From: Clostridioides sp. ES-S-0010-02
GTDB taxonomy: Bacteria; Bacillota; Clostridia; Peptostreptococcales; Peptostreptococcaceae
Reading direction: 5' to 3'
Length of the DNA stretch: 64,000 nt
NCBI GenBank assembly: GCA_020641055.1
Contig: CP067345.1
Span: 2,039,317-2,103,316 of the forward strand
In this document: positions 3,371-20,789 of the stretch, piece by piece
Position numbering within the stretch: position 1 is the stretch's first letter
Layout of the letters: every line of letters begins with the position of its first letter
The notes under the pieces: generated by a model
What the model was told of the DNA's origin: nothing
Database searches by the model: none
What the model saw: the letters and a program-made list of their open reading frames with translations, nothing else
Position numbers and translations under genes: made by a program

Positions 3371-4639
3371 ATGGAATCATCTATACATACAATTGCCAGC
3401 AATAATTTATTGATAATTTTTGCTATTGTGAGTATAACTGGAATAATTTGCAGCAAACTTAGCGAAATCGTAAAAGTTCCAGATGTTGTATTATTTTTAC
3501 TTGTAGGTATTTTAATAGGACCATCATTTTTGAAATTTATAGATATTCGTGGATTCCAAATAGAGAATCAACTGATACTTACATTTGGTTCTGCATTTAT
3601 ATTATATTTAGGTGGAAAAGAAATAAGTTTAAAAGTTTTGAGAAATGTAAAGATATCTGTATTTTTACTAGCTACTGTAGGAGTAGTGATATCTGCTTTT
3701 ATAATGCAACAAGTAATAGGATTTACTTTTGGAGTAAGTGCAATGACTGCTTTATTAGCAGGAACTATAATAGCATCAACAGACCCTGCTACTCTTGTAC
3801 CTATATTTAATCAAGTAAAGATAAAGGATAGAGTAAAACAAACTGTAATAAGTGAATCAGCTTTTAATGATGCAACAGGAGCTATATTAACATCAGCAGT
3901 GTTAGCTGTAATTTTATCAAATAAGTTTTCCTTAAGTGCCAATATTTATGAATTAGGTACAATGGTTGTTGTAGGAATTGTAGTTGGTCTAATTACAGGA
4001 ATACTGCTTTTGAAATTGGTTAATGATAAGCCATATGGTATATTTAAAGATTTTGCACCAATAATATCTGTTATTTCAGTTGTGGTTGCATATGAATTAT
4101 CTACAAAATTAGGCGGAAGTGGATATATGTCTTGCTTTATTGTAGGTATAATAACTGGTAACAAGAAAAACTTTAAAATATGGTTAAGCCAAAAATCTTA
4201 TGATGCAGATTTTTATGTTGCTGAGACTTTAGGAACTATTTGTCGTATGGCGATATTCATAATATTAGGTAGTCAAGTTAATTTGGCTCAGTTAGGTAAA
4301 TATTTTGTACCATCTGTAATTGCAGTGCTAGTATTAATGTTTATAGCAAGACCAATTTGTGTCTTAGTATGTGCACTTGCAGACAGAGAAGCAAAATGGA
4401 GTAAAAATGAAATATTGTTCATGATGTGGGTAAGAGAAACTGGTGTAATCCCAGCTGCACTTTGTGGTATTATTTCAGCAATGAAAGTTCCTGGATATGA
4501 AGTAATTTCATCAGTAGTATTTATGTCTATATTAATTACATTAGTAATACAAGGAAGCACTACAAAATTGGTAGCTAAAAAACTTGGATTATTAGAAGAA
4601 GAAGTGATAAATATAAGCGAAAAGGTATCAACTTTTTAG
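3371..4639 (+). CDS. Cation/proton antiporter (CPA / Kef type)
   Basis: This membrane protein of 422 residues exchanges a monovalent cation (Na+ or K+) for protons. It has about twelve hydrophobic helices. The STDPATLVPIF segment and the downstream SESAFNDATGAIL carry the acidic residues typical of the Na+/H+ exchanger family (PF00999), and GGSGYMSCFIVGIITGN follows. The start at 3371 is chosen because AGGAGGAGAG lies directly before it; an ATG at 3329 is in frame but has no ribosome site. The length is that of the transport domain alone, with no TrkA-type regulatory tail. It is monocistronic. Confidence 0.8.
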   Translation: MESSIHTIASNNLLIIFAIVSITGIICSKLSEIVKVPDVVLFLLVGILIGPSFLKFIDIRGFQIENQLILTFGSAFILYLGGKEISLKVLRNVKISVFLLATVGVVISAFIMQQVIGFTFGVSAMTALLAGTIIASTDPATLVPIFNQVKIKDRVKQTVISESAFNDATGAILTSAVLAVILSNKFSLSANIYELGTMVVVGIVVGLITGILLLKLVNDKPYGIFKDFAPIISVISVVVAYELSTKLGGSGYMSCFIVGIITGNKKNFKIWLSQKSYDADFYVAETLGTICRMAIFIILGSQVNLAQLGKYFVPSVIAVLVLMFIARPICVLVCALADREAKWSKNEILFMMWVRETGVIPAALCGIISAMKVPGYEVISSVVFMSILITLVIQGSTTKLVAKKLGLLEEEVINISEKVSTF

Positions 4640-4832: not shown

Positions 4833-5621
4833 ATGTTTACGGTTATAGATATTGTACAACCAGATACAGTGGAAGAAGCGTACTCAATTTTAAATAAAAG
4901 AAAAACTAATCAAGTAATTGGTGGAAGTGCTTTTTTAAGAATGGGGAAAAAAAGAATAGGAACAGGAATAGAGTTATCTAACCTAAACCTAGATTATATA
5001 AAAGAAGATAAAGAGTATGTTGAAATTGGTTCTATGACTACTTTTAGAACATTGGAAACAAGTTCAATAATAAAAGATAATTTTGGTAAAATAATAGAAG
5101 ATTCAGTTAAAGATATAATAGGAATTCAGTTTAGAAATGTAGTAACAGTTGGTGCAACAGTATTTTCTAAATATGGATTTTCTGATTTGATAGTGGCATT
5201 GCTTTCATTAGATACAGAAGTAGAGTTATATAAGGGTGGGAGAATTAGCCTTGAAGAGTTTTTAGATAGAGATTATGGGAAGGACTTATTGACTAAGGTG
5301 TATATAAAGAAGGAAAATAAAAAAGCCTCTTATAAGTCATTGAGAAATGCAAAAAGTGATTACCCTATTTTGAATGTGTCTGTTTCAAAAGATGGTAAGA
5401 AGTTTAAGTTGTGTGTAGGAGCAAGACCTCAAAAAGCTATGATTGCAAAAAAAGCTAGTGAATTTTTATCTAATAATGAAATTAATGAAGCTAATATAGA
5501 TAGGGCAATAGAAATAGCTTCAGAGGAATTAACATTTGGTTCTAATATGAGAGCATCTAAAGACTATAGAAAAGCTATGAGTAAAGTACTTTTAAAAAGA
5601 GCTATAATGGAGGTTATTTAA
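4833..5621 (+). CDS. Molybdenum hydroxylase, FAD-binding subunit (set 1)
   Basis: This 262-residue protein is the medium (FAD) subunit of a xanthine dehydrogenase-type enzyme. It passes electrons from the 2Fe-2S subunit to a soluble acceptor. IGGSAFLRMG (around residue 30) and the glycine-rich QFRNVVTVGATVFSKYGFSD (around 110) are the FAD-contacting segments of the family, and the C-terminal part has the CO dehydrogenase flavoprotein domain pattern. It is slightly shorter than the E. coli XdhB class and resembles YgfM. It is the first gene of a three-gene operon, and its stop codon overlaps the start of the next gene by one base (TAATG). The ribosome site is GGGAGGAAA. Confidence 0.88.
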   Translation: MFTVIDIVQPDTVEEAYSILNKRKTNQVIGGSAFLRMGKKRIGTGIELSNLNLDYIKEDKEYVEIGSMTTFRTLETSSIIKDNFGKIIEDSVKDIIGIQFRNVVTVGATVFSKYGFSDLIVALLSLDTEVELYKGGRISLEEFLDRDYGKDLLTKVYIKKENKKASYKSLRNAKSDYPILNVSVSKDGKKFKLCVGARPQKAMIAKKASEFLSNNEINEANIDRAIEIASEELTFGSNMRASKDYRKAMSKVLLKRAIMEVI

Positions 5622-6070
5622 TGTTAGTAAAGCTTAATATAAATGGAAAAATGAAAAATATTGATATAGAGCCAGAAGAATATTTGGTTGATACCTTAAG
5701 AAAAGTTGGCAATTTAAGTGTAAAAAGGGGTTGTGATACAGGTTGTTGTGGTCTCTGTACAGTTTTAATAGATAAGAAACCTACATTATCTTGTGCGACA
5801 TTAACCTTGAGAGTTTTAAATAAAGAGATAACTACAATTGAAGGTTTAGAAAATGAAGTTAAAGAATTTAGTGAAGTTTTGGTAAAAGAAGGAGCTGAAC
5901 AATGTGGTTTCTGCTCTCCTGGTTTTATACTTACTGTACTTGCAATGAAAGATGAGCTTAAGAACCCTACAGACGAAGAAATAAAACATTATTTAACAGG
6001 AAATTTATGTAGATGTACAGGATATATGGGACAGTTAAGAGCTATCAAAACTTATCTGGAGGTAAAGTAG
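5621..6070 (+). CDS. Molybdenum hydroxylase, 2Fe-2S subunit (set 1)
   Basis: This 149-residue small subunit carries two [2Fe-2S] centres. The plant-ferredoxin-type centre uses C38, C43, C46 and C58. The second, on the helical domain, uses C96, C99, C131 and C133 (QCGFC and LCRCTGY). It relays electrons from the molybdopterin centre to the FAD subunit. It is translationally coupled to the FAD gene upstream, and the Mo subunit gene begins three bases downstream. All eight ligands are present, so the subunit should be functional. Confidence 0.9.
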   Translation: MLVKLNINGKMKNIDIEPEEYLVDTLRKVGNLSVKRGCDTGCCGLCTVLIDKKPTLSCATLTLRVLNKEITTIEGLENEVKEFSEVLVKEGAEQCGFCSPGFILTVLAMKDELKNPTDEEIKHYLTGNLCRCTGYMGQLRAIKTYLEVK

Positions 6071-6073
6071 AAT

Positions 6074-8338
6074 ATGAATATAGTTGGAAAAGGAATTGAA
6101 AAAATAGATGGAATGAGTATAACAACAGGAAAACCTGTATATACTGATGATTTAGCAGCAAAAGATGCTTTAATAGTAAAGATACTTAGAAGCCCTTATG
6201 CTTATGCAAAGATAAAAGATATAGATACATCAAAGGCAGAAATGGTTGATGGTGTTGAATGTATTTTAACATATAAAGATGTACCAAAATCTAGATTTAC
6301 ACTTGCTGGTCAAACCTATCCAGAGCCATCACCTTATGATAGGCTAATTCTTGAAGATGTTGTGAGATATGTTGGTGATGAGGTAGCTATAGTTGCAGCT
6401 ATAGATGAAAAAAGTGCAGTTAAAGCAATGAATCTTATAAAGGTAAATTATGAAGTACTAACACCTGTTTTGAATTTTGAAGAGGCAATCGGAAATAAAA
6501 CTATAGTACATGATGAAGATAGACATTGTAATTTTGAAATAGGTATGCAGAGAGAAAAGAATATAGTGTCACATCATGACTATACAAAAGGTGATATAGA
6601 AGAAGTATTAAGTAATTGTGACATAGTGATTGAAGAAACATATTATACTCAAGCTCAAGCCCATGCAATGATGGAGACGTATAGATCATATAACTATTTA
6701 GATCATGCTGGAAGACTAGTTGTAGTAAGTTCAACTCAAATACCATTTCATGTTAAAAGACATCTATCCCGTGCATTAGAACTACCAGCTAGTAAAATTA
6801 GAGTTATAAAACCTAGAATTGGTGGTGGCTTTGGTGGTAAACAAACTGCTTGTGTTGAGATTTTTTCAGCTATTGTAACTTTAAAAACAGGTAAGCCAGC
6901 TAAAATAATATATGATAGAAAAGAAACTTTTAATTGTTCGACTAGTAGACATGCAATGAAACTAAAAGTTCGACTAGGTGCTACTAATGATGGAATAATA
7001 AAGGCTATCGATATAAATGCACTTTCAGATACAGGAGCATATGGAGAACATGCTTCTACAACTATTGGCTTAGTTGGGGAAAAGACTTTACCAATGTATA
7101 ATAAGGTTGAGGCAACAAGATTTATCGCAGATGTAGTTTATACTAATAAAATGCCAGCAGGTGCACTTAGAGGGTATGGAGCTTCTCAAGGCTGTTTCGC
7201 TGTTGAATCAACTATAAACATGTTAGCTGACAAATTAAAAATGGACCCAACGGACTTGAGATTAAAAAATGTAGTAACACAAGGTGAAACTACCTTTGCA
7301 TATGGAAAAACTTTAAATAGTGTAGACTTAGTAAAATGTATAAATAAAGGGAAAGAACTTATCGGATGGGATGAAAAATATCCTTGTAAGCATCTTGAAA
7401 ATGGAAAAGTTAGAAGTGTGGGTATGGCAATTACTATGCAGGGTTCTGGTATACAAGGGCTTGATAAATCTTCAGCTGAAATAAAACTAAATGACTGTGG
7501 AGACTATACACTTATGATAGGTTCTACTGATATGGGTACAGGAAGTGACACAATTCTAGCTCAAATGGCTGCTGAAATTCTTGAGACAAGTATTGAAAAT
7601 ATAACAGTTATATCAGCAGATACAGATTTGGTCCCATATGACCCAGGTTCATATGCTTCAAGTACCACTTATGTAACTGGGATGGCAGTAGTTAAGGCAG
7701 CTCAGGATTTAAGGGATAAAATAATATCTGCTGGAGCAACTAAACTAGGTGTAGATAAAGACGAATTAGAATTTGATGGTATAAAATTAACTAGTAAAGA
7801 ATGCAGTACTTCGTTATTTGACATAGCAGTTGACTCTACAATTGGACCAAATACTAATCAATTAATAGGTCTCGCATCTCATGGTAGTCCAGTATCACCA
7901 CCACCTTTTATAGCTGGTTTTGCAGAAACTGAAATTGATAAAGAAACTGGAAAAGTTGACTTATTAAATTATGTAGCCATAGTGGACTGTGGAACAGTTA
8001 TAAATAAAAACTTAGCAAAGATACAGGTTGAAGGTGGAATTGTTCAAGGTATTGGAATGGCAATGTTTGAAGAAGTTAGATATACAGAAAAAGGTAACAT
8101 GGATACAAACACATTTATGCAATATAAGATTCCAGCTAGATGTGATATTGGAAATGTGGAAGTTGATTTTGTTGAAAACTATGAGCCAACAGGACCTTTT
8201 GGAGCTAAATCTGTTGGAGAGGTTGTTATAAATACACCTTTACCAGCAATACAAGAAGCTGTTTTTAATGGTGTTGGGGTTAGAGTAAATACACTTCCTA
8301 TTACACCTGAAAAAGTTTTTATGGAAATGAATAAGTAA
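6074..8338 (+). CDS. Molybdenum hydroxylase, molybdopterin-binding subunit (set 1)
   Basis: This 754-residue catalytic subunit of a xanthine dehydrogenase-type enzyme hydroxylates a purine or other N-heterocycle. The N-terminal a/b hammerhead domain (about 10-120) precedes the molybdopterin domains. Diagnostic segments are RIGGGFGGK (about residue 250), GALRGYGASQG (about 360) and GPFGAKSVGEV near the C-terminus, whose Glu is the catalytic base of the family. The substrate cannot be assigned from sequence alone. Purine context, YqeC/MocA nearby and similarity to E. coli XdhD favour a purine substrate and possibly a selenium-containing cofactor. It ends the operon. Confidence 0.88.
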   Translation: MNIVGKGIEKIDGMSITTGKPVYTDDLAAKDALIVKILRSPYAYAKIKDIDTSKAEMVDGVECILTYKDVPKSRFTLAGQTYPEPSPYDRLILEDVVRYVGDEVAIVAAIDEKSAVKAMNLIKVNYEVLTPVLNFEEAIGNKTIVHDEDRHCNFEIGMQREKNIVSHHDYTKGDIEEVLSNCDIVIEETYYTQAQAHAMMETYRSYNYLDHAGRLVVVSSTQIPFHVKRHLSRALELPASKIRVIKPRIGGGFGGKQTACVEIFSAIVTLKTGKPAKIIYDRKETFNCSTSRHAMKLKVRLGATNDGIIKAIDINALSDTGAYGEHASTTIGLVGEKTLPMYNKVEATRFIADVVYTNKMPAGALRGYGASQGCFAVESTINMLADKLKMDPTDLRLKNVVTQGETTFAYGKTLNSVDLVKCINKGKELIGWDEKYPCKHLENGKVRSVGMAITMQGSGIQGLDKSSAEIKLNDCGDYTLMIGSTDMGTGSDTILAQMAAEILETSIENITVISADTDLVPYDPGSYASSTTYVTGMAVVKAAQDLRDKIISAGATKLGVDKDELEFDGIKLTSKECSTSLFDIAVDSTIGPNTNQLIGLASHGSPVSPPPFIAGFAETEIDKETGKVDLLNYVAIVDCGTVINKNLAKIQVEGGIVQGIGMAMFEEVRYTEKGNMDTNTFMQYKIPARCDIGNVEVDFVENYEPTGPFGAKSVGEVVINTPLPAIQEAVFNGVGVRVNTLPITPEKVFMEMNK

Positions 8339-9071: not shown

Positions 9072-9572
9072 ATGAGAAGAAATAGTACCAATATAGCAGT
9101 AACAGCAGTTGTTACATCAATTTATGCAGTTTTAACTTTATCATTAGGATTTATAAGTTATGGACCAATACAATTTAGGATAGCCGAGATTATGATGCTT
9201 CTAGCATTTTTAGATAAGGGATATATAGTAGGTCTTACATTAGGTTGTTTTTTAGCCAATGTAATAGGTCCATATGGTGTACCTGATATAATTTTTGGAA
9301 CATTTGCCACATTTGTAAGTGCAAGTTTAGTGTATATTACTAGAAAGTTAGGCGGTCAAAATAAAAGCACATTAATTATAGCTTCTATATGGCCTACTAT
9401 CATAAATGCAATTGTAGTTGGATTAATGTTAAATATATTTTTTGGACTTCCTCTAATATTATCGATGATACAAGTAGGTTTTGGAGAATTTGTAGTAGTA
9501 ACCTTGGTAGGAGTACCATTCTTTTGTTTTTTAATGAAAAAATATAGAAATATCATTGATATTAAGTTTTAG
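9072..9572 (+). CDS. queT: QueT-type queuosine precursor transporter (ECF S component)
   Basis: This 166-residue integral membrane protein has about five hydrophobic helices and no soluble domain. The N-terminal half contains YGPIQFRIAEIMMLLAF and the downstream GPYGVPDIIFGTFAT, both typical of the QueT family (PF06177). That family is the substrate-binding component of energy-coupling factor transporters thought to import queuosine precursors. It would need the shared ECF ATPase and EcfT modules, which are not in the window. The start has AGGAGAG close upstream. No preQ1 riboswitch core is visible in the 280-base leader, which is otherwise AT-rich and featureless. Confidence 0.75.
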   Translation: MRRNSTNIAVTAVVTSIYAVLTLSLGFISYGPIQFRIAEIMMLLAFLDKGYIVGLTLGCFLANVIGPYGVPDIIFGTFATFVSASLVYITRKLGGQNKSTLIIASIWPTIINAIVVGLMLNIFFGLPLILSMIQVGFGEFVVVTLVGVPFFCFLMKKYRNIIDIKF

Positions 9573-9645: not shown

Positions 9646-10623
9646 TTGTCAAAGATAAAGAGATTAACTGATGTTTGGACATATATTAATGATAGACAAA
9701 AGTTTACAATCAAAGAGTTGTCAGAGAAGTTTAATCTTTCAACTAAAACTATTCAACGATATTTAATAGAATTAAATGAAATGGGGCTTCCAATTAAAGC
9801 AGAAAAAGGTAGAAATGGAGGTTATAGGGTATTAAATAATAGCTATATACCTCCTGTTATATTTACAGAAAAAGAAGTTATGTCTATAGTTTTTGCATTT
9901 AAGTCACTACAAGTTTACAATTTTTCACACATAAAAAAAGAAATTGATTCTATAATTAAAAAAATAAATTATAATCGTGAAAGTAGTGCAAAAATAGGTA
10001 TAAACAACATTGAAAAATATATTGAGTTTATAGCTAATTATAAAAATATTGATGCCAATATTGTGACTGAATTTTTCAGGTCTTCATCAAACTCTTGTGT
10101 TTTAAATATCAAATATAAATCTGGAAATCAGTTGCTGGAGAAAAAAATATGCCCAATAGGTATATATTTAAATGAAGGATTTTGGTTTTCACCAGTGTAT
10201 GACTATGAAAGTGATAATATTATACTAATACGTATAGACAAAGTACTGGAAATTGAAAAAGTAGGAGAGTCTAAAAAAGCATGTATAAGTTTGAAAAGTT
10301 GGCTAGATTCAGTATATAGCAAGTTAAATGAAGAGATGGCAATTACTAAGAAAACTAGTGAAATTGTTCATTTGCATGTATTACTCACAAAAGAAGGTAT
10401 TTCTAAAATAACTAGAAGTTTTTTAGATTTGGATATAGAATTAAATGAAAATGGAAGTGGAACAATTAGTAAATTTATAAAGTATGAAGAAATAGATTGG
10501 TGGATATCTACATTATTTTCAATAGGAAAAGATGCTAAAGTTATAGAACCAAAATTTATGAATAAATTACTTTATGATAGGGCTAAAGAGTTAAAATATT
10601 TTTATGAAGAAAATATGATATAA
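9646..10623 (+). CDS. HTH / WYL-domain transcriptional regulator
   Basis: This 325-residue regulator starts with a winged helix of the HTH_11/DeoR-like type (KFTIKELSEKFNLSTKTIQR, about residues 18-37; RNGGYRVL about 60). A WYL-type ligand-sensing domain follows (about 145-230, with IYLNEGFWFSPVYDY) and then a C-terminal extension. The TTG start at 9646 is supported by AAGGGGGA seven bases upstream. WYL regulators often control phage-defence operons by sensing nucleic acid or nucleotides. This one lies 49 bases upstream of an FtsZ-like gene and mcrBC on the same strand, so it probably regulates or belongs to that unit. That link is inferred from position. Confidence 0.78.
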   Translation: MSKIKRLTDVWTYINDRQKFTIKELSEKFNLSTKTIQRYLIELNEMGLPIKAEKGRNGGYRVLNNSYIPPVIFTEKEVMSIVFAFKSLQVYNFSHIKKEIDSIIKKINYNRESSAKIGINNIEKYIEFIANYKNIDANIVTEFFRSSSNSCVLNIKYKSGNQLLEKKICPIGIYLNEGFWFSPVYDYESDNIILIRIDKVLEIEKVGESKKACISLKSWLDSVYSKLNEEMAITKKTSEIVHLHVLLTKEGISKITRSFLDLDIELNENGSGTISKFIKYEEIDWWISTLFSIGKDAKVIEPKFMNKLLYDRAKELKYFYEENMI

Positions 10624-10672
10624 TATTTAAAAATGTTAAAATTAAATAATTATTAAGGAGATATATATTATA

Positions 10673-11395
10673 ATGGAAAGTTTTAATAAGAATGCTAAGA
10701 TAATTGGTATTGGAGCTAAAGGTATTAATATAATAAATGAAATAGAAGAAAAAGTAAAAATAAATATGGATATAGAAAAAATTACTATGAATCAAGAGGT
10801 TGAAAAAGAATATGTTAGAAGTCTTTTAGATGGAGTTGACATATTATTTTTAGCATATTCAACTGAAGATAAACAAAGTCGAGAAGTTATAAAAGCTATT
10901 TCATACATGTCTAATGAAAGACGAATTTTATCTATAGGTATAAATTCTTCAGAAGAAGAAAATAAAGATGACTTAGGAATTAATAGAGAATTTAAAGTCA
11001 ATGAAAATAGTATTTTAAAATTTGTTGATTTGATGAATGTTATGATAGAATCTATTTCAGACTCTTGTATGATAAATATAGATATAACTGATTTAAAAGA
11101 AGCTATTATAAGTGATAAAGGGATTAAGTATTCTTTTGAAGAATTTGAAGATTCAAAACAGCACAGTGAAATAGTAGATATTTTATTTGAAAATATGGAA
11201 CATTTTGGTGAAGAATTTATTGGGAAAAAAGGTATAGTTTTTGTTGAAGGAAATGATAAATTTTCACTAGTTGAATTAAATGATTTGATGAATAATATTC
11301 AAAGTAAGGTAGAAGAAGGCTATGAAATAATATTTTCTTTATACTTAAAAGAAAATTTAGATGGAAAGATTAAAGTGGGAATGTTATATAATTAA
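10673..11395 (+). CDS. Degenerate FtsZ-like protein upstream of McrBC
   Basis: This 240-residue protein resembles a shortened FtsZ. The N-terminus AKIIGIGAKGINIINEI matches the first strand and loop of FtsZ (IGVGGGG). DILFLAYSTEDKQ aligns where FtsZ has its tubulin signature GGGTGTG, but the glycines are missing. The last 115 residues match the FtsZ C-terminal domain well: MINIDITDLKEAI, then KKGIVFVEG, SLVELNDLMNNI, IIFSLYLKENL and KIKVGML. The protein is about 120 residues shorter than FtsZ and probably cannot hydrolyse GTP. AAGGAG lies 13 bases upstream, a slightly long spacing. It is 27 bases before mcrB. Its function is unknown; the homology is my reading by eye. Confidence 0.6.
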   Translation: MESFNKNAKIIGIGAKGINIINEIEEKVKINMDIEKITMNQEVEKEYVRSLLDGVDILFLAYSTEDKQSREVIKAISYMSNERRILSIGINSSEEENKDDLGINREFKVNENSILKFVDLMNVMIESISDSCMINIDITDLKEAIISDKGIKYSFEEFEDSKQHSEIVDILFENMEHFGEEFIGKKGIVFVEGNDKFSLVELNDLMNNIQSKVEEGYEIIFSLYLKENLDGKIKVGMLYN

Positions 11396-11422
11396 TGTAT
11401 TTTAGATATTAAGGAGAAGTAT

Positions 11423-13357
11423 ATGTCTGAAAATATAAATGTTACAGAGTATTGGCTAATGGAAGAATTTTTTTATCAAGAGACAGATACACCACAAATT
11501 TTTAAAGAAGAAAGCATAATTGCATTGGGATTTGATATAAAAATAAATTTAAAAAAAGTGCTTAATATGGGAAAAAAATCTGAAAAATACATTAATGAGA
11601 ACTGTAATGACAAAGATTTTATAAAAAAATTTATTTCAGTTAAAAAAGGAGATTATTTTCTATATAAGGCATATCAAAATGTAGAAGGAAAAATTAAGTA
11701 TAGTGTTCTTATTGGTATTGTTGAAGAAAGTTTTGAAAATGGTTATGAATTAAGTCATATCTTGGGTCATACATTACCTATAAAATGGATGTACACATTT
11801 GATACAGTTTTAAATTGTAAAATATATACGAGTGAGTTTTATAAATTAAATAATGAAGATATAAATACATATTTAGACATTATTAAATTGCAACATAATA
11901 AATCATTAAAAAAAAGAATAGAAGAAAATGACAATAATAAATGGTACCTAAAAAACTATTATTATATAGATGTAGATAAGTGTGTAGAGAATGAAGAACT
12001 GTTTATTCAACCTACTAATTTAGAACAATTAGAAAACTTGAAAAATATAAATACAGATGATTATATTCTAGTATATAATAGCGAAAAAGTAAGTTACGAA
12101 AATGACCATACAATGAAAAGCTTATTTGGTGTTTGTCAAGTTAAAGAGGGTTTTGATAAAGACAAAATAACTACTTCAGAAGGTGGATGTTTTTTACCTG
12201 TAGAATGGATAGAAAATGAAAAAGAGAATATTGATGGAAATGCATGGGTTATCTTTGAAAATAATAATTTAGTTGAAAAATATATAAAAAGATGTATTAA
12301 TAAAATTCCATTAAATACCATACTTTATGGTCCACCAGGGACGGGTAAAACATATAATGCAAAACAAATAGTTTATAATTTAATAAATGAAACTAGTTTA
12401 AAAAATAATGATTGTACAAGTTATGTAGATTATAAAAATAATGTAGAATTTTGTACTTTTCATCAATCATATGGATATGAAGAGTTTATAGAAGGTCTCA
12501 AATCCGATGGTGAAGGTAATTTTAAGCCAGAAGATGGTATATTGAAGGAAATATCTATAGAAGCATGTTACGATGGGTTGAAACTTGAAAAGAAGCTAAA
12601 TCTTGAGTTAGAAAAAGATACTTTAACTATAGAAGATGTAAAGGCAAGAAAAAAGATGTTGGTGCTTGATAATATAGAAGATGTCGAGAACTTTAATTTT
12701 GAAGAATCAGAAAACTATGTTTTAATAATAGATGAAATCAATAGAGGAAATATATCTAAAATATTTGGGGAATTAATAACATTATTAGAAGATGATAAAA
12801 GACTTACTAAATCAAATCAAACTATCGTAAAACTACCATATTCAAAAGAAAGATTTTCTCTACCTCCAAATTTATATATAATTGGTACTATGAATACATC
12901 AGATAAATCCATAGCTCTTTTAGATATAGCTTTGAGAAGAAGATTTGCTTTTGAAGAAATTATGCCAGACTATGATTTATTGTCTGTTGTAGATGGAATA
13001 GATGTTAAAAATATGCTATATACAATTAATAAGAGAATAGAGTTTTTATATGATAGAGACCATGTTATTGGACAGGCCTACTTACTAAATGTAGAAAATA
13101 TTGATGATATAGTGGCCGTATTTAGAAAAAAAATAATACCACTTCTTCAAGAATATTTCTATTATGACTCAGAAAAAGTAGGACTTATTTTAGGTGGTAT
13201 AGGTAAAAATGAAAAGGACAAATATATTGTTTATAAGGAAGAAATCACAGCATCTAAATTATTTAAAAATAATAATTCATCAATAATGGAAAGTAAAGTT
13301 AATTATTGTATAAAACGAAATATATCTATTGAGGAGTTAAAAAATATATATGAGTAA
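11423..13357 (+). CDS. mcrB: McrB-type AAA+ GTPase of a McrBC restriction system
   Basis: This 644-residue protein is the motor subunit of a modification-dependent restriction system. Walker A is GPPGTGKT (303-310) and Walker B is LIIDEINRG (D437, E438). The McrB signature MNTSDKS (490-496) is followed by the arginine finger region LRRRF. The N-terminal 290 residues appear to contain two EVE-like modified-base-reading modules: one around 70-135 ending LPIKWM, and one around 210-275 ending LPVEWI. That is more than the single reader in E. coli McrB. AAGGAG precedes the start. It overlaps mcrC by eight bases, so the two are coupled. Confidence 0.88.
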
Positions 13358-14618
13358 AAATATATATGTAAAGGAAACTTATGAATGGATAAAAGTAGGT
13401 AATGGTGAAAATGAACTTACAGAAACTGAATATGAAAAATTACTTAAATATCTGGATAATAATAATGATGTGTTAAAGAGTAATATAATAGATATCAGAT
13501 ATAAAAAACTGAGATTCATAAATTATGTAGGTGTTATATATTTTGAAAATGTAATATTGGAGATACTTCCAAAGCTGTCATTAAGTAATGATATTGTAAA
13601 AGATAGAGAAATGCTATTACAAATGCTTTCTACATGTAATAAGATTCCAATTATAATAAACGAAAATATAAAATCAAGTTTAAAAAATTATAATCTCATG
13701 AATTTTTTTGTTATGTATTTTATTGAAAGTATGCAAATGCAAATTAAGAGAGGGATTTATTTTGAATATATAAATAAGATAGATAATTCGAATGTTGTAA
13801 AAGGCAAGATATTAATAAGTAAATATGCAAGAGAAAAAAATATATCTCCAATGAAAATAAAATGTGAATATGATGAGTATAGCGAAAATAATTTTTTGAA
13901 TCAAGTTTTAAAAAAGGCATGTATATCTATATTATGTAAAGTAAATGACAATTTAATTCAAAATAAGATAAAAAAAATTTTGAGTTATTTTTATAATGTG
14001 GACTTAGTTTATATAAATAGAGAAGAACTATTGGATTACAAATTTTATAAAAATAATGATAGATTTAAAGATTGTTACTCATTGGCGAAACTTATACTTT
14101 TAAATTTATCGATGGATAACAGCGAAAATAATCAAGATGCATTTTCTATATTATTTGAAATAAACATTTTATATGAAGAATATATCGGAAACTTAATAAA
14201 AAATATATGGAATAATGAATTTAGAGAAACGTATATACAAGATAAAAGTAAATTTCTTTTAAAAAATGAGCAAACAGGAAAGAAAACTTTTAATTTAAGA
14301 CCAGATATAGTTTTATATGATTCAAAATATGAATCTGAAATCATAATTGATACAAAATGGAAAGCTATTGAAGTGGATTCAAATATATTCTATAGATCAA
14401 GTGATATATATCAGATGTATGCATATATAACATCTTATGAAAATGCAAAAAGATGTATATTATTATATCCTTGTATTAAAAAAGATAAAAATTACAGTTC
14501 ATGGAGGTTATTGGAGTCGTTTAAAGGTAAATTTATAGAAGCAAAAACTGTAAGATTGGATAATATAAAAAACACCATATCTGATTTGAAAAAAATAATT
14601 TTTAATTATAAATTTTAA
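13350..14618 (+). CDS. mcrC: McrC-type nuclease subunit
   Basis: This 422-residue partner of McrB supplies the endonuclease. The PD-(D/E)xK core is visible as RPDIVLYD (D319) followed by IIIDTKWK (D334, K336). The N-terminal 200 residues form the McrB-contacting, beta-rich and helical part usual for the family. The ATG start lies inside the last codons of mcrB, which suggests translational coupling. All catalytic residues are present. It is the last gene of the run. The next likely terminator-like hairpin is at 14791, beyond a sigma-54 promoter. Confidence 0.87.
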
Positions 14619-14954: not shown

Positions 14955-15995
14955 ATGGATAAACACAGTGATTCAGTAATGTATGGTGGAATGGAAGTAT
15001 ACAATATTTGGGGAACAACAACAGTAGACTCTATAATTGGGGAGTCTGATGTAATGCTTGCTCTTAAAAATAGAATTTGTAAAATTGGAAATAGTGATTC
15101 TACTGTAGCGATAACTGGAGAAAGTGGCACTGGAAAAGAGTTAATAGCAAGAGCCATTCATCTCGCAGGAAACAGAGGGAATAAAACATTCGTTGCTATA
15201 AACTGTGCTGCTATACCAGAGCCCTTGCTAGAAAGTGAACTTTTTGGGTATACAAAAGGAGCTTTTAGTGGGGCAGATTCAAAAGGCAAAATTGGTAAAT
15301 TTGAATTAGCTAATGGAGGAGTTGTATTTCTAGATGAGATAGGGGATATGCCAATTCAATTACAATCAAAGCTTTTGAGAGTGTTACAGGAAAAGAAGTT
15401 TACAAGAATAGGTTCAAATGAACTAATTGATATAGATGTTAGAATTATATCAGCTACTAATAGAGATTTATTTGAGTTGGTTAAAGAAAATAAATTTAGA
15501 GAAGACTTATATTATAGATTGAATGTAATACCTCTAGAAGTACCTCCTCTTAGAGATAGAGGAGATGATATACAAATATTAATAAATAATTTTATAGATA
15601 AATATTCAAGGAAGATGAAAAAAAATGTATACCATATAGAGCCAGATGTAGAACATATGCTGCTTAAATATCCGTGGCCAGGAAATATAAGAGAATTAGA
15701 AAACACTATAGAATTGGCTTTAAATCTTCTTGAAGAAGATGGGATAATACATAAAGGTATAATAAATAGAAAGATAATTGAATATTTTAAGTTAAACAAA
15801 ATAAATATAAAATTACTTGAGGAAAGTGACTATGAAATAAATATGGAACAAGATATACTTACCCTTGAAGAATTTGAGAGAGCATATATAAAAAAGGTAT
15901 TAAAGTTTTATGGAAATGATACTAAATCTAAAAAGTTAGCTGCTAAAAAGCTTGGAATATCGCTAGCAACATTGTATAGAAAGATAGATGTATAG
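14955..15995 (+). CDS. Sigma-54-dependent transcriptional activator without sensor domain
   Basis: This 346-residue enhancer-binding protein has a complete AAA+ domain: Walker A GESGTGKE (55-62), the sigma-54 contact loop GAFSGA (102-107), Walker [11 protein letters not shown] (123-132) and PWPGNIREL (about 240). A Fis-type helix-turn-helix lies at the extreme C-terminus ([19 protein letters not shown]). Only about 30 residues precede the AAA+ domain, so the usual N-terminal PAS or response domain is absent, as in PspF. E. coli YgeV, in a similar purine cluster, is a full-length member. It probably activates the four sigma-54 promoters of this island. The start has TTGGAGTTG upstream. Confidence 0.88.
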
Positions 15996-16045
15996 TAATT
16001 ATTCTTTTAATTCTCAATTCTAAAATTTGAAATTATAAAATTGAT

Positions 16046-16085
16046 AAAAATCACTTGAAAAACTATTTTCTAAGTGATTTTTTTT
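16046..16085 (+). terminator. Rho-independent terminator of the activator gene
   Basis: AAATCACTT (16048-16056) pairs with AAGTGATTT (16072-16080), extended by GAAAA/TTTTC inside the stem and followed by eight T. Confidence 0.85.
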
Positions 16086-16214
16086 GTAATAAGATTTTAT
16101 TATCCAAAAATAAAAAAAATTTGAAAGAATTTAAAAAAAGAAATGGTTTATCAAATTATTAAATACTAACAAATATAATAAAAATTATATATGTAAAACA
16201 ATTTTGTTAAAATA

Positions 16215-16231
16215 TTGGCATTATAATTGCT
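16215..16231 (+). promoter_or_regulatory. Sigma-54 promoter of nucleobase permease 1
   Basis: TTGGCATTATAATTGCT has the -24 (TGGCAT) and -12 (TTGCT) elements with the invariant GG-N10-GC spacing. It lies 84 bases before the permease start. I see no copy of the ATTCTATGC motif upstream. Confidence 0.75.
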
Positions 16232-16314
16232 TCATATTAAATCAAGATGACAAAATAAAAAAGAAAGGATGTTGAATAATAACTGTCATTAAAAAATAGT
16301 TGGGAGTGATAACC

Positions 16315-17664
16315 TTGAGTAAATATCAAAAAAGTGTATCTATGTTTGATATTGATGGAAGGCCACCAATTTTAAAGTGTTTACCACTATCAATGCAGCA
16401 TATACTAGCAATGATAGTTGGAACTGTCACAGTACCTATAGTTGTGGGAGGAGCTGTTGGTGCTAGTGCCACACAAATAACACTTTTAGTGCAATATGCA
16501 TTAATAATAGCTGGAATATCGACACTTATACAACTATATCCAATAGTAAATATTGGTTCAAGATTGCCTATAATTTTTGGAGTCGGTTTTACTTATGTGC
16601 CAACACTCGTAGCAGTTGGAGGAAGTTATGGACTAGCGAGCATATTGGGAGCACAATTAATAGGGGGAGTGGCTACAGTATTAATAGGAATATTTATAAA
16701 AAAGATAAGAAAATTTTTCCCTAATATAGTTGCAGGAACAGTAGTTTTTACAATTGGATTATCTTTATATCCTATAGCAATAAATTATATGGCAGGTGGT
16801 GTAAATAGCCCTACTTATGGCTCTATGCAAAATTGGGCAGTAGCAGCTATAACACTAGTGGTAGTTATAGGTCTTAGTCAATTTGCAAAAGGTTATGCAA
16901 AATTGGCAGCAATATTTTTGGGAATTATAGTTGGATATTGTGTATCTTTAGTTTTGGGCATAATAAATTTTGACCCTATTAGAGAGGCAGCTTGGTTTGC
17001 TATACCTAAGCCACTTGAATTTGGACTTGAATTTGATATACCAGTAGTAATCTCTGTAGTAATTGTAAGTATAATCAATGCTGTTCAAGCAATTGGAGAT
17101 TTGTCAGCTACTACAATGGGAGGTATGGATAGAAATATAACAGATAAAGAACTGTCAAGTGGAGTAATAGGAAGTGGAATTTGTACTATGATAGGTGCTT
17201 TGTTTGGAGGTTTACCACCATCATCATATAGTCAAAATGTAGGTATGGTAGCTATGAACAAAGTAATAAGCAGATTTGTACTTGGAATAGCTGGTATATT
17301 TATGTTATTATCGGGGTTTGTACCTAAGTTTGGTGCATTGATGACAACTATACCATATTCTGTTTTAGGAGGGGCTACAATATCTATATTCAGTATGATA
17401 ACAATGACAGGTATAAAGTTAATTATTACAGAAGAATTGTCATCAAGGAATATTACTATTGTAGGTTTGGCAATAGCTTTAGGTATGGGAATAACATCAG
17501 TTCCGGCAGCACAGGAAGCATTTCCTCCATTTGTAAAGTTAGTATTTGGAGAATCTCCAATAGTAATTGCGACATTGGTTGCATTTGTTTTAAATCTAAT
17601 AATACCAAATAAAAGTCTAGAAGATGAAGCTAAAGAAAGAGCTGTTATGGAAAAGGCTAATTAA
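16315..17664 (+). CDS. NCS2 family nucleobase permease 1 (xanthine/urate type)
   Basis: This 449-residue proton- or sodium-coupled purine transporter has about fourteen hydrophobic segments. The N-terminal QHILAMIVGTVTVPIV and the signature SQNVGMVAMNK (about residue 310) match the NCS2 family, including the conserved Asn-x-Gly. The TTG start at 16315 is preferred because GGGAGTG precedes it by six bases; upstream in-frame TTG and GTG codons lack a site. It is the first structural gene of the sigma-54-controlled purine block. Xanthine or urate is the likely cargo from context. Confidence 0.85.
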   Translation: MSKYQKSVSMFDIDGRPPILKCLPLSMQHILAMIVGTVTVPIVVGGAVGASATQITLLVQYALIIAGISTLIQLYPIVNIGSRLPIIFGVGFTYVPTLVAVGGSYGLASILGAQLIGGVATVLIGIFIKKIRKFFPNIVAGTVVFTIGLSLYPIAINYMAGGVNSPTYGSMQNWAVAAITLVVVIGLSQFAKGYAKLAAIFLGIIVGYCVSLVLGIINFDPIREAAWFAIPKPLEFGLEFDIPVVISVVIVSIINAVQAIGDLSATTMGGMDRNITDKELSSGVIGSGICTMIGALFGGLPPSSYSQNVGMVAMNKVISRFVLGIAGIFMLLSGFVPKFGALMTTIPYSVLGGATISIFSMITMTGIKLIITEELSSRNITIVGLAIALGMGITSVPAAQEAFPPFVKLVFGESPIVIATLVAFVLNLIIPNKSLEDEAKERAVMEKAN

Positions 17665-17960
17665 AAAATGATAATTTAAAAGGGTTGTTTAAATTATTTT
17701 ATTATGAGATTGTTAGATTACTTCAGATAGCTATTCATTTTAATAAGAAATTTAATAAAGAGTATACATCAGACATTTAATGTTTAGTCAAAAAGAAAAT
17801 CGGGGGAGGGTATATTTGCACGTTTGTTAAATTTTTATAAAAATAGCTCAGTTTAGCTGTGGTTATCGGTTGAGCAATAAATTCATGGTCATAAAAATAT
17901 TTATAGAAAATAATTATAAAATATTTAGTCAAGATATTTATGTATGGGAGGATTTATTTT
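17665..17960 (+). other. Leader between permeases 1 and 2
   Basis: These 296 bases are non-coding. GCTCAG (17847-17852) can pair with TTGAGC around 17872. A GGGGGAGGG run at about 17803 resembles a ribosome site but has no useful frame. No purine riboswitch core was recognised. It may contain a promoter for the second permease, but none is clear. Confidence 0.35.
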
Positions 17961-19322
17961 ATGAAAACACGTAATACTTCAAAATATGATGTGGATGGGA
18001 TACCACCACTAAAGGAATCGGTACCTTTAGCTTTACAACATTTGTTAGCAATGATAGTAGGAAATATGGTGCCTGCAATATTAATAGCAAACGTGGTAGG
18101 ACTTAACCAGGGGCAAGCGACGATGTTGATTCAAGGCTCTATGTTAGCAGCAGGTTTGGCAACGTTTTTACAATTATATCCAATACCTTTATTTAAAGGA
18201 TTTAAATTAGGTTCAAGATTACCTGTAATGATGGGAATGAGTTATGTATTTTTAGGGGCCTGTCTTTCTGTAGCAGCTAAAGACGGTTTAGCAGCTCTAT
18301 TTGGAGCACAAATTGCTGCTGGGGTAATCGTATTCTTTGTAGGATTTGCAGTTAAGAAAATTAGACATATATTCACTTCTATAGTTTCTGGAACTATAAT
18401 AGCATGTATGGGACTTGGATTATTTGCAACAGCTATAAAGAATTTAGCAGGAGGAGAAGGTGCACAAACATTTGGAAGTCCAATAAATTTTATAGTAGGA
18501 GTTATAGTTGCTTTTGTAATAATAATGATAAATAAGTATGGTAAAGGCTTAGTTAAAAACTCTTCAATATTAATTGGAATATTAGTAGGATATGCTATAT
18601 CTTTAGTTTTAGGATTAGTTGATTTTTCTGCAGTTAAAGGTGCAGCTATAGTATCTTTGCCAACACCAGCAGCTTTTGGATTGGAATTTAGACCAGAGTT
18701 AATAGTAATGTTTACTATTATTTACATAATAGGTATAGCTGATATGATGGGTGCGTGTACAATAGCAACAATAGGTGCAATGGACAGAGAGGTAACTGAT
18801 GAAGAGTTATCATCAGTTGTTTTAGGAAACTCTGTAACTTCTATAATTTCATCACTATTTGCAGCTCTTCCAACTGGAGTATTCAGCCAAAACACAGTAA
18901 TTGTATCTATGAATAAAGTTACAAGTAGATTTGTAATAGCATTAGGAGCACTTGTATTATTGCTAGCAGGAATATCTCCAGCATTAGGAGCAATAATGAC
19001 AACTATACCATCTTGTGTTGTTGGTGGAGCAACTTTAGTAGTATTTTCATCAATAGCAATGTCTGGTTTTTCTATTATGAGTATGGATGGTTTTACTGAA
19101 GAAAATAATCTTATAGCAGGAGTATCTATAGCAACAAGCATGGGTCTTACAACTGCTCCACAAGTTTTAGACCAATTTCCAGCAACAATTGGAACTGTCC
19201 TAGGAGGCTCAAGTATAGTTTCTGGAGCAATAATAGCTATATTACTTCAAACACTATTTAAACTAAAAGGAAGTAAGAAAGCTGAAAACGTTACTTCAAA
19301 TCTTGAGGAAAATATTGGATAA
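17961..19322 (+). CDS. NCS2 family nucleobase permease 2
   Basis: This 453-residue paralogue of the preceding gene has the same membrane layout (LALQHLLAMIVGNMVPAIL near the N-terminus; NLAGGEGAQTFGSP mid-protein). The family signature here reads SQNTVIVSMNK, with Val where NCS2 proteins normally have Gly, which may mean a different base specificity. The start at 17961 is chosen because GGGAGGA lies 11 bases before it; the in-frame ATG at 17940 would place that site inside the gene. The aminohydrolase gene follows after 72 bases and is probably co-transcribed. Confidence 0.83.
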   Translation: MKTRNTSKYDVDGIPPLKESVPLALQHLLAMIVGNMVPAILIANVVGLNQGQATMLIQGSMLAAGLATFLQLYPIPLFKGFKLGSRLPVMMGMSYVFLGACLSVAAKDGLAALFGAQIAAGVIVFFVGFAVKKIRHIFTSIVSGTIIACMGLGLFATAIKNLAGGEGAQTFGSPINFIVGVIVAFVIIMINKYGKGLVKNSSILIGILVGYAISLVLGLVDFSAVKGAAIVSLPTPAAFGLEFRPELIVMFTIIYIIGIADMMGACTIATIGAMDREVTDEELSSVVLGNSVTSIISSLFAALPTGVFSQNTVIVSMNKVTSRFVIALGALVLLLAGISPALGAIMTTIPSCVVGGATLVVFSSIAMSGFSIMSMDGFTEENNLIAGVSIATSMGLTTAPQVLDQFPATIGTVLGGSSIVSGAIIAILLQTLFKLKGSKKAENVTSNLEENIG

Positions 19323-19394
19323 ATGTATTAGATATGATATGAGAAAGCTATGTGATAAAATGTTGTAATGAAAGTATTAAAAGGGGGATTTAAG

Positions 19395-20789
19395 ATGATT
19401 GATATACTAATAAAAAATGCAATAGTTGTTACAGTTAATAAAAATAGAGAAGTTATATTTGATGGAGCAATAGCTATTCAAGGTGACAGAATCTTAGATA
19501 TAGGAAATACAGATGATGTTGAGGTGAAGTATACTGATGTTAAAAAGGTTATAGATGCTAAAGGAAAAGTGATATTCCCTGGATTTATAAACACTCATAA
19601 TCATCTATTCCAAGTATTATTAAAAGGTCTAGGAGACGACATGGCACTTCATGAATGGTTAAACACAATGATGTTTCCATCAGCAAAGTTCTTGACAGAA
19701 CAAGATACCTATGATGCTGCAATGCTTGGATGTATGGAAGGTTTAAAAAGTGGTATAACTACAATGGTTGATTATATGCATACACATAATAGACCAGGAC
19801 TTACAGATGGAATAGTAAAAGCATATAAAGATTTAGGTATAAGAGGAGTAGTTGGTAGGGGCTGTATAGATTTAGGTATTCATAAAGAGCTTATAGAAGA
19901 CGTGGAAACGGTTGAAAAGGATTTGAGAAGAGTATTTGAAAAATATCATAATTCAGAAAATGGAAGAATAAAAATTTGTGTAGCACCTTCTTCAATGTGG
20001 GCTATATCTGAAGAAATGGGTAAAATGCTTTGGAATATAGTCAAAGAGTATGATTCATACTTCACAGTTCATATTTCTGAAACTGAATTTGCAAGAACAG
20101 CAACAAAAGATATACATGGGGAAATAGATATAAAATTACTTGAAAAATGGGGAATAGTAGGTCCAGAGGTTGTAGCAGTGCATTGTGTATGTATAACTGA
20201 TGAGGACATGGAAATGCTTAAAAAGTATGATATAAAAGTTTCTCATAATGTTGCAAGTAATATGTATCTTGCTTCTGGTGTTGCACCTGTTCCAGAAATG
20301 TTAAAGAAGGGTATAAATGTAAGCTTAGGTCTTGATGGTGCAGCAAGTAACAATGCACAAGATATGGTAGAACTTATGAAATTAACAGCTTTACAACATA
20401 AGGTAAACAATTGTGACCCTCTTGCAATTTCTGCAGAAAAAGTCCTTGAAATGGCTACAATTGAGGGAGCAAGAACTCTTAGAATGGAAGATGAAATAGG
20501 TTCTTTAGAGGTTGGAAAAAAAGCTGATTTAGTAATATTTAACTCAATGCTTTCTCCAAAATCAATACCTCTTCACAATCCTGTATCAACTTTGGTATAC
20601 TCAGCTAGTATGCACAATGTAGAAAGTGTCTTAGTTGATGGAAATATAATACTTGAAAATGGTAGAGTTACTACAATTGAAAGTGAAGAACAAGTCTTAT
20701 TGAATGCTCAACATGCAGCAGAAGAATTATGTAAGAGAGCTAATGTAACTAATAGAATGGAAGGGCATAAGTGGAATAGCTTATACTAG
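19395..20789 (+). CDS. TRZ/ATZ-family aminohydrolase 1 (guanine / 8-oxoguanine deaminase-like)
   Basis: This 464-residue metal-dependent amidohydrolase probably deaminates an amino-purine. The metal ligands follow the family pattern: THNH (H68, H70), FTVHISET (third His, about residue 220), VAVHCVCI (about 255) and LGLDGAASNN (Asp, about 318). The start at 19395 follows AAAGGGGGA; the upstream in-frame ATG at 19368 has no site. It precedes genes for a two-subunit molybdenum hydroxylase and is closely related to the gene at 28958. Guanine to xanthine conversion would feed the neighbouring hydroxylase, but 8-oxoguanine and other substrates are equally possible. Confidence 0.8.
   Translation: MIDILIKNAIVVTVNKNREVIFDGAIAIQGDRILDIGNTDDVEVKYTDVKKVIDAKGKVIFPGFINTHNHLFQVLLKGLGDDMALHEWLNTMMFPSAKFLTEQDTYDAAMLGCMEGLKSGITTMVDYMHTHNRPGLTDGIVKAYKDLGIRGVVGRGCIDLGIHKELIEDVETVEKDLRRVFEKYHNSENGRIKICVAPSSMWAISEEMGKMLWNIVKEYDSYFTVHISETEFARTATKDIHGEIDIKLLEKWGIVGPEVVAVHCVCITDEDMEMLKKYDIKVSHNVASNMYLASGVAPVPEMLKKGINVSLGLDGAASNNAQDMVELMKLTALQHKVNNCDPLAISAEKVLEMATIEGARTLRMEDEIGSLEVGKKADLVIFNSMLSPKSIPLHNPVSTLVYSASMHNVESVLVDGNIILENGRVTTIESEEQVLLNAQHAAEELCKRANVTNRMEGHKWNSLY

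Follow-up and report, generated by a model that had tools for sequence, protein, structure and literature searches.

A pseudo-FtsZ of the Peptostreptococcaceae that retains the T7 aspartate pair and adjoins mcrBC genes only in Clostridioides

What is the role of a gene encoding a degenerate FtsZ-like protein, located between the gene for a transcriptional regulator and those of a restriction system? This question is raised by a stretch of 64,000 nucleotides (hereafter the window; contig CP067345.1, positions 2,039,317 to 2,103,316) from Clostridioides sp. ES-S-0010-02, the genome of which consists of one contig of 4.26 Mb. Four genes lying on the same strand, encoding a WYL regulator, a 240-residue protein of the FtsZ superfamily (pseudo-FtsZ, pFtsZ), McrB and McrC, are spaced by 49 and 27 bases, the last two overlapping by 8 bases. 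This run, which a first-pass annotation had interpreted as a candidate extended defence system, was re-found at the same positions. The pseudo-FtsZ part of the interpretation is supported and is widened here to a gene present throughout a clade, whereas the defence part is not supported. Since the pFtsZ relatives in other genera have no adjoining restriction genes, pFtsZ is more likely to be a hitherto unstudied factor of cell division than to take part in phage defence. The reading we prefer, to which we assign a probability of about 0.4, is that pFtsZ, carrying the aspartate pair of the T7 loop, acts on the FtsZ of the same cell as a filament end cap or as a trigger of its GTPase activity.

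Lost and conserved features of pFtsZ

The structure predicted for pFtsZ shows the two-domain fold of bacterial FtsZ (TIGR00065, PF12327) with the elements in the same order, and its T7 loop includes both catalytic aspartates. Unlike FtsZ, pFtsZ has a short N-terminal domain and lacks the T3 and T4 motifs; its chain goes no further than the final strand, so that a C-terminal linker and a tail peptide are missing too. The FtsZ fold, the loss of the tubulin signature and the shortening of the N-terminal domain, all of which had been proposed in the first-pass annotation, are therefore confirmed. None of the seven positions of the T4 signature GGGTGTG is kept in the pFtsZ of the window, neither GGxTG nor GGG is present in any of the 39 pFtsZ rows, and the T2-T3 region is largely deleted. 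The curated family cut-offs are not reached, since the scores amount to 20.9 bits with the C-terminal domain profile FtsZ_C (cut-off 27) and 34.7 bits with TIGR00065 (cut-off 295.2). In the light of the missing GTP motifs, the missing tail and these scores, pFtsZ is not classed here among the FtsZ GTPases.

Whether pFtsZ might bind a nucleotide in an altered way and form filaments of its own was considered on the basis of 37 distinct rows (the 38 full-length rows minus one duplicate, the fragment L049 being excluded). A T1-like GxGxxG is partly present (G12 in 31/37, G14 in 29/37 and G17 in 34/37), and N-x-D/E occurs near the place of T2 (N40 in 30/37, D or E at position 42 in 36/37). Since T4 has disappeared from all the rows and little is left of the T2-T3 region, a nucleotide-binding filament former of this kind is very hard to credit.

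An alignment of 40 FtsZ rows has 148 columns with a conservation of 95% or more, 111 of which can be aligned with pFtsZ. Just six of these 111 columns keep the FtsZ residue in at least 90% of the pFtsZ rows, namely K24, G32, G139, D219, D222, and F303 (residue numbers refer to the FtsZ open frame in genome G000). D219 and D222 are the catalytic T7 aspartates, and the fact that they account for two of the six columns argues for an action on FtsZ. The corresponding residues of pFtsZ, D137 and D140, were found in all 37 distinct rows and belong to the 12 invariant columns of an alignment of 30 of the 39 rows (L002, L003, L026, L033, L037, L040, L045, L048, and L049 being omitted). The T7 asparagine, N135, is kept in 23/37 rows, and the pFtsZ of the window has this residue in addition to both aspartates. 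These T7 figures were examined post hoc, once the alignment had been seen.

Alternatively, pFtsZ may have ceased to act on FtsZ, its fold now serving as a scaffold or for binding to another partner and the T7 aspartate pair as a structural helix cap. The very small proportion of FtsZ columns kept is in line with such a reuse, as are the family invariants located beyond T7 (D53, A75, M79, E82, R83, and K186 in the 30 rows) and the predicted model, in which a helix begins at residue 138, between D137 and D140. The persistence of both catalytic aspartates in every row, although nearly all the rest has changed, is less easily explained in this way, and we consider the reuse of the fold as a scaffold to be possible, if on the whole doubtful.

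pFtsZ is under purifying selection, which identifies it as a maintained gene and not a relic: in comparisons between the window and seven Clostridioides relatives, the ratio of nonsynonymous to synonymous substitution rates (dN/dS) was 0.19-0.26. In the same comparisons, this ratio amounted to 0.28-0.39 in the case of the WYL gene, 0.09-0.15 in that of mcrB, 0.10-0.12 in that of mcrC and 0.05-0.16 in that of a gene encoding a QueT-type transporter. In the pFtsZ of genome G037 (L045), the loop preceding helix H7 is enlarged by about 40 residues of low complexity, inserted after the place of residue 96.

Distribution and genomic neighbourhood

In profile searches, pFtsZ was identified in 46 of the 71 genomes and 16 of the 23 genera of a family taken to be the Peptostreptococcaceae from its Clostridioides members; in one of these 46 genomes (G054) the gene is a contig-end fragment, and in another (G035) the frame is broken by stops. 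The other matches in the family involve the C-terminal part only and mostly lie within open frames of FtsZ length. pFtsZ was not found in any other family among 297 genomes of the order and 245 of the class: the order set gave a single match outside the family at 1e-9, which is C-terminal only and lies in a 405-residue frame, and in the class set, searched at 1e-3, 21 genomes gave a match, namely G000 itself and 20 others, in which the match is C-terminal and lies in a frame of 325-416 residues. The pFtsZ gene is distributed throughout the clade, mostly in a single copy. No relative was found in the phage, plasmid, and viral collections, and a mobile origin of the gene was rejected on these grounds.

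FtsZ itself was present in the 23 genomes tested. In a tree built from 40 FtsZ rows, of which 38 come from the family and 2 from the order, all 21 pFtsZ-positive rows belong to one clade (97/99) along with 5 negative ones, and the rows outside this clade (12 basal rows of the family and the 2 of the order) are all negative. The tree requires four label changes, which are taken here as one gain followed by losses, other readings being possible; the crown Peptostreptococcaceae probably owe pFtsZ to a single gain by their common ancestor, most of the descendants having retained it. Genomes G021 and G040 are represented in the tree by an additional tail-less FtsZ, so that their branch is that of the paralogue. 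In addition to a normal FtsZ, the six genomes of genus g15 searched all contain another frame, of about 325-332 residues, whose FtsZ match exceeds the cut-off; in the two cases read (L063 in G021, L069 in G040), this second FtsZ contains GGGTGTG and is 318 residues long, ending directly behind the globular domain with no linker or tail peptide.

The arrangement in which pFtsZ lies between the WYL gene and mcrBC occurs in all eight Clostridioides species genomes and was found only in this genus. Clusters of homologous genes were built from the longest open frames with BLAST at 39 loci, several of which end at contig ends: the WYL (c21), McrB, and McrC clusters are present at six loci, every one of them from Clostridioides, and none of the three was found in the sequence around pFtsZ at the 33 other loci, some of which are cut by contig ends. 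The recurrent linkage with mcrBC on which the first-pass annotation had made its proposal depend was thus observed at 0/33 loci. It had been suggested that pFtsZ might belong to an extended McrBC system, either as a decoy sensing attacks on cell division or as an effector blocking division. The compactness of the run in all eight Clostridioides genomes, with its small gaps and single orientation, would be in keeping with this idea; in one survey, type IV restriction accounts for 37 of 210 defence systems near WYL regulators of the BrxR family (PMC9122601); and McrC is commoner outside Clostridioides in genomes with pFtsZ (14/38) than in those without it (3/25), these being raw counts from related genomes. 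Over the whole family, McrC (PF10117) was identified in 25/71 genomes, 22 of the 46 carrying pFtsZ and 3 of the 25 lacking it, which leaves 24 pFtsZ genomes with no McrC. pFtsZ also gave no match with PADLOC, and its clade-wide, mostly single-copy distribution and the lack of relatives in the phage, plasmid and viral collections speak against the idea; an extended defence system is therefore quite improbable.

At the only non-Clostridioides locus where McrC lies within roughly 10 kb of pFtsZ (L095, genome G016), the McrBC pair is about 8 kb upstream, with several genes in between, and its McrC and McrB are 27% and 42% identical, respectively, to the cluster members; it is apparently an independent arrival. 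The constant unit of the loci is pFtsZ itself, and the picture is best read as the settling of the WYL and mcrBC genes around an older pFtsZ gene in the Clostridioides lineage. A gene adjoining a restriction system need not be a defence gene.

It is also conceivable that pFtsZ was recruited into an mcrBC operon in Clostridioides only, for instance to hold division while McrBC is cutting, as the arrangement is shared by the eight species genomes and the short gap separating pFtsZ from mcrB contains AAGGAG. This recruitment seems unlikely, however, since the T7 aspartates and the other family-wide residues are unaltered in Clostridioides, the dN/dS of McrB differs from that of pFtsZ, and no match with a LexA-like pattern occurs between positions 4420 and 16736. 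Control by the SOS response was rejected, the 10 matches with this pattern in the window being at chance level.

Outside Clostridioides, a QueT-type gene (c1) lies directly upstream of pFtsZ at 24/33 loci, with a gap of 4-45 bases at 22 of them. A gene that is presumably of the ABC-F type lies directly downstream at 14/33 loci, and pFtsZ is followed at 8/33 by a cluster (c9) which we take to be of the selenium-molybdenum hydroxylase accessory type. QueT is not a fixed operon partner, which also counts against a scaffold having its commonest neighbour as partner: it is present in 20/25 genomes without pFtsZ and absent from 5/46 with it, and in genus g12 it is located elsewhere than pFtsZ or is absent. 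In eight pFtsZ-negative genomes, no pFtsZ was found around QueT, two of these sequences being cut by a contig end just past QueT. A link with sporulation was rejected because SpoIVA is absent from 3/46 pFtsZ genomes, all belonging to genus g23, and present in 11 genomes lacking pFtsZ; a link with the rod shape was rejected likewise, MreB being present in 71/71 genomes. As pFtsZ is kept in genomes lacking McrC, SpoIVA, or QueT, its constant partner must lie elsewhere.

A possible action on FtsZ

In Staphylococcus aureus FtsZ, the T7 residues D210 and D213 are reported to keep the catalytic water in place, or to position it, at the GTP bound by the adjacent subunit, and the D210N and D213N substitutions to suppress assembly (PMC8936486). 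By analogy, the T7 face of pFtsZ would dock on the exposed GTP face of the terminal FtsZ subunit and supply both aspartates needed for hydrolysis, completing the active site of the last subunit. We propose that since pFtsZ has a T7 face and no GTP site, it can sit solely on the GTP-bearing end of a filament, which has been tentatively assigned as the non-growing end (PMC8936486), and that since it also has no tail, it can neither extend the filament nor bind the partners of the tail. pFtsZ might therefore be, in function, half an FtsZ subunit, which would cap one end of the filament or trigger GTP hydrolysis there, stopping or speeding turnover, and which might thus tune the length of the filaments or the placement of the Z-ring. 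Such a protein would serve as a natural half-subunit for testing filament polarity and the control of filament ends.

Binding to one filament end has a precedent in Bacillus MciZ, which is reported to bind the bottom face of FtsZ (PMC8936486), whereas pFtsZ, having the FtsZ fold, would bind the opposite, GTP-bearing face. Like FtsZl1 and FtsZl2, pFtsZ is a diverged relative of FtsZ that typically occurs beside a normal FtsZ. FtsZl2 differs from it in keeping all the nucleotide-binding motifs, and pFtsZ is nearly the reverse of FtsZl1, in which the beginning of the nucleotide-binding domain is kept and no FtsZ-like C-terminal domain is seen; these comparisons were made by description. The plastid protein ARC3 of plants, which from the title of one paper is reportedly a chimera of FtsZ with part of a eukaryotic kinase, can be likened to pFtsZ by description and not by sequence. 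ARC3, too, is derived from FtsZ; it works with the Min system, and the proposal has been made that FtsZ is its target, on which it would take the place of MinC, and that it does not itself build the ring (PMC3728212).

The division of Clostridioides difficile is known to depart from the textbook rules, and pFtsZ is a concrete candidate regulator of it. This species is reported to lack FtsA and FtsN, the substitutes for which are unknown, and to grow without a canonical FtsW/FtsI pair (PMC10693644). The FtsA cut-off was reached in none of the 71 genomes of the family; since FtsA is missing both with and without pFtsZ, the idea that pFtsZ simply stands in for it was rejected. Five pFtsZ-negative genomes of basal genera (G043, G031, G023, G010, and G025) gave weak, nearly full-length FtsA matches (95-112 bits, cut-off 175.85) in frames of 644-702 residues, and no crown genome was among the matches listed.

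MinC, an inhibitor of FtsZ, gave a match in 66 genomes, 20 of which were aligned (loci L119-L138). In its C-terminal domain, an extra repeat of 18 residues was present in all 15 crown genomes examined, that is, in 13/13 genomes with pFtsZ and 2/2 of genus g6, and in 0/5 basal ones; the two g6 genomes have a longer MinC, from which the RSG motif is lost. No match with MinC_C was obtained in 5/9 g6 genomes. A bolder reading, which we consider rather unlikely, is that the FtsA-less division of the crown Peptostreptococcaceae, C. difficile included, uses a GTP-blind, T7-armed copy of FtsZ that caps the filaments or triggers GTP hydrolysis at one end and has co-evolved with a changed MinC. pFtsZ would then be the bacterial equivalent of ARC3 and, in a major pathogen, a divisome protein that has so far gone unlisted.

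Several points weigh against an action of pFtsZ on FtsZ. D-x-x-D is a capping box, and the T7 pair may owe its conservation to N-capping of helix H8 and not to catalysis. The asparagine equivalent to N208 of S. aureus FtsZ, a residue that assembly likewise requires, is found in no more than the 23 rows mentioned above. The gene is absent from all nine g6 genomes, a clear loss which makes pFtsZ dispensable at least in this genus, and from the crown genomes G038, G026, G057, and G102, although the last three are 75-88% complete and the absence there may reflect incompleteness. As for MinC, the two g6 genomes examined carry the extra repeat without pFtsZ; the change in MinC and the gain of pFtsZ share one node, so that their association amounts to a single event and is a lead only; and C. 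difficile MinC alone is reported to lengthen Bacillus subtilis cells (PMC4905992), and hence does not need pFtsZ. Lastly, two studies on division in C. difficile name no such protein in the parts searched (PMC10693644, PMC12548448); one of them, a screen published in 2025, puts the number of documented divisome proteins at 22 and does not use the term "FtsZ-like" in its text (PMC12548448). In the open-licence literature, no paper was found on an FtsZ-like protein in C. difficile, and a pseudo- or degenerate FtsZ was found mentioned only with reference to a domain-swapped crystal form.

The restriction genes and their surroundings

The genes on either side of pFtsZ would form an ordinary type IV restriction system plus its regulator, and the WYL protein may control mcrBC. 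A McrC of family PF10117 beside an McrB AAA motor places McrBC in type IV, and the regulator combines a helix-turn-helix with a WYL domain, the match with the latter being below the Pfam cut-off; the WYL model of PADLOC matches its residues 3-303 (E 2.3e-27, 94.1 bits). The overlap between mcrB and mcrC and the upstream location of the WYL gene are those of other McrBC systems with a WYL regulator, from which this run differs in having pFtsZ between the WYL gene and mcrB. The coordinates are given in Table 1.

Table 1. Genes and motifs of the run and the adjoining transporter gene (positions in the window)
Feature	Position	Strand	Remarks
QueT-type transporter gene	9072..9572	+	PF06177 match at the same place in G000
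HTH-WYL-type transcriptional regulator	9646..10623	+	HTH_11 over cut-off; WYL and WCX below Pfam cut-offs
pFtsZ, 240-residue FtsZ-superfamily protein	10673..11395	+	no T3/T4 motifs, no C-terminal linker/tail
pFtsZ residues 65-71, at the place of GGGTGTG (T4)	10865..10885	+	EDKQSRE
pFtsZ T7-loop motif NIDITD, residues 135-140	11075..11092	+	equivalent to NLDFAD of FtsZ
McrB, AAA motor, type IV restriction	11423..13357	+	AAA_5 2.6e-16; PRK11331 2.2e-35 (below cut-off)
McrC, nuclease subunit	13350..14618	+	PF10117 3.1e-89, over cut-off

Residues 1-276 of McrB gave no Pfam match at E values up to 1, and the model predicted for this N-terminal domain, with a predicted local distance difference test score (pLDDT) of 36, is too poor for a fold to be assigned. 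In a promoter scan, the count was no different from that obtained with shuffled sequences, and the scan was not used. The run is surrounded by regions (4833-8338 and 14955-20789) that look like a purine-use cluster, with xanthine dehydrogenase-type genes upstream and, downstream, a sigma-54-type regulator, two permeases of the xanthine/uracil type, and an amidohydrolase.

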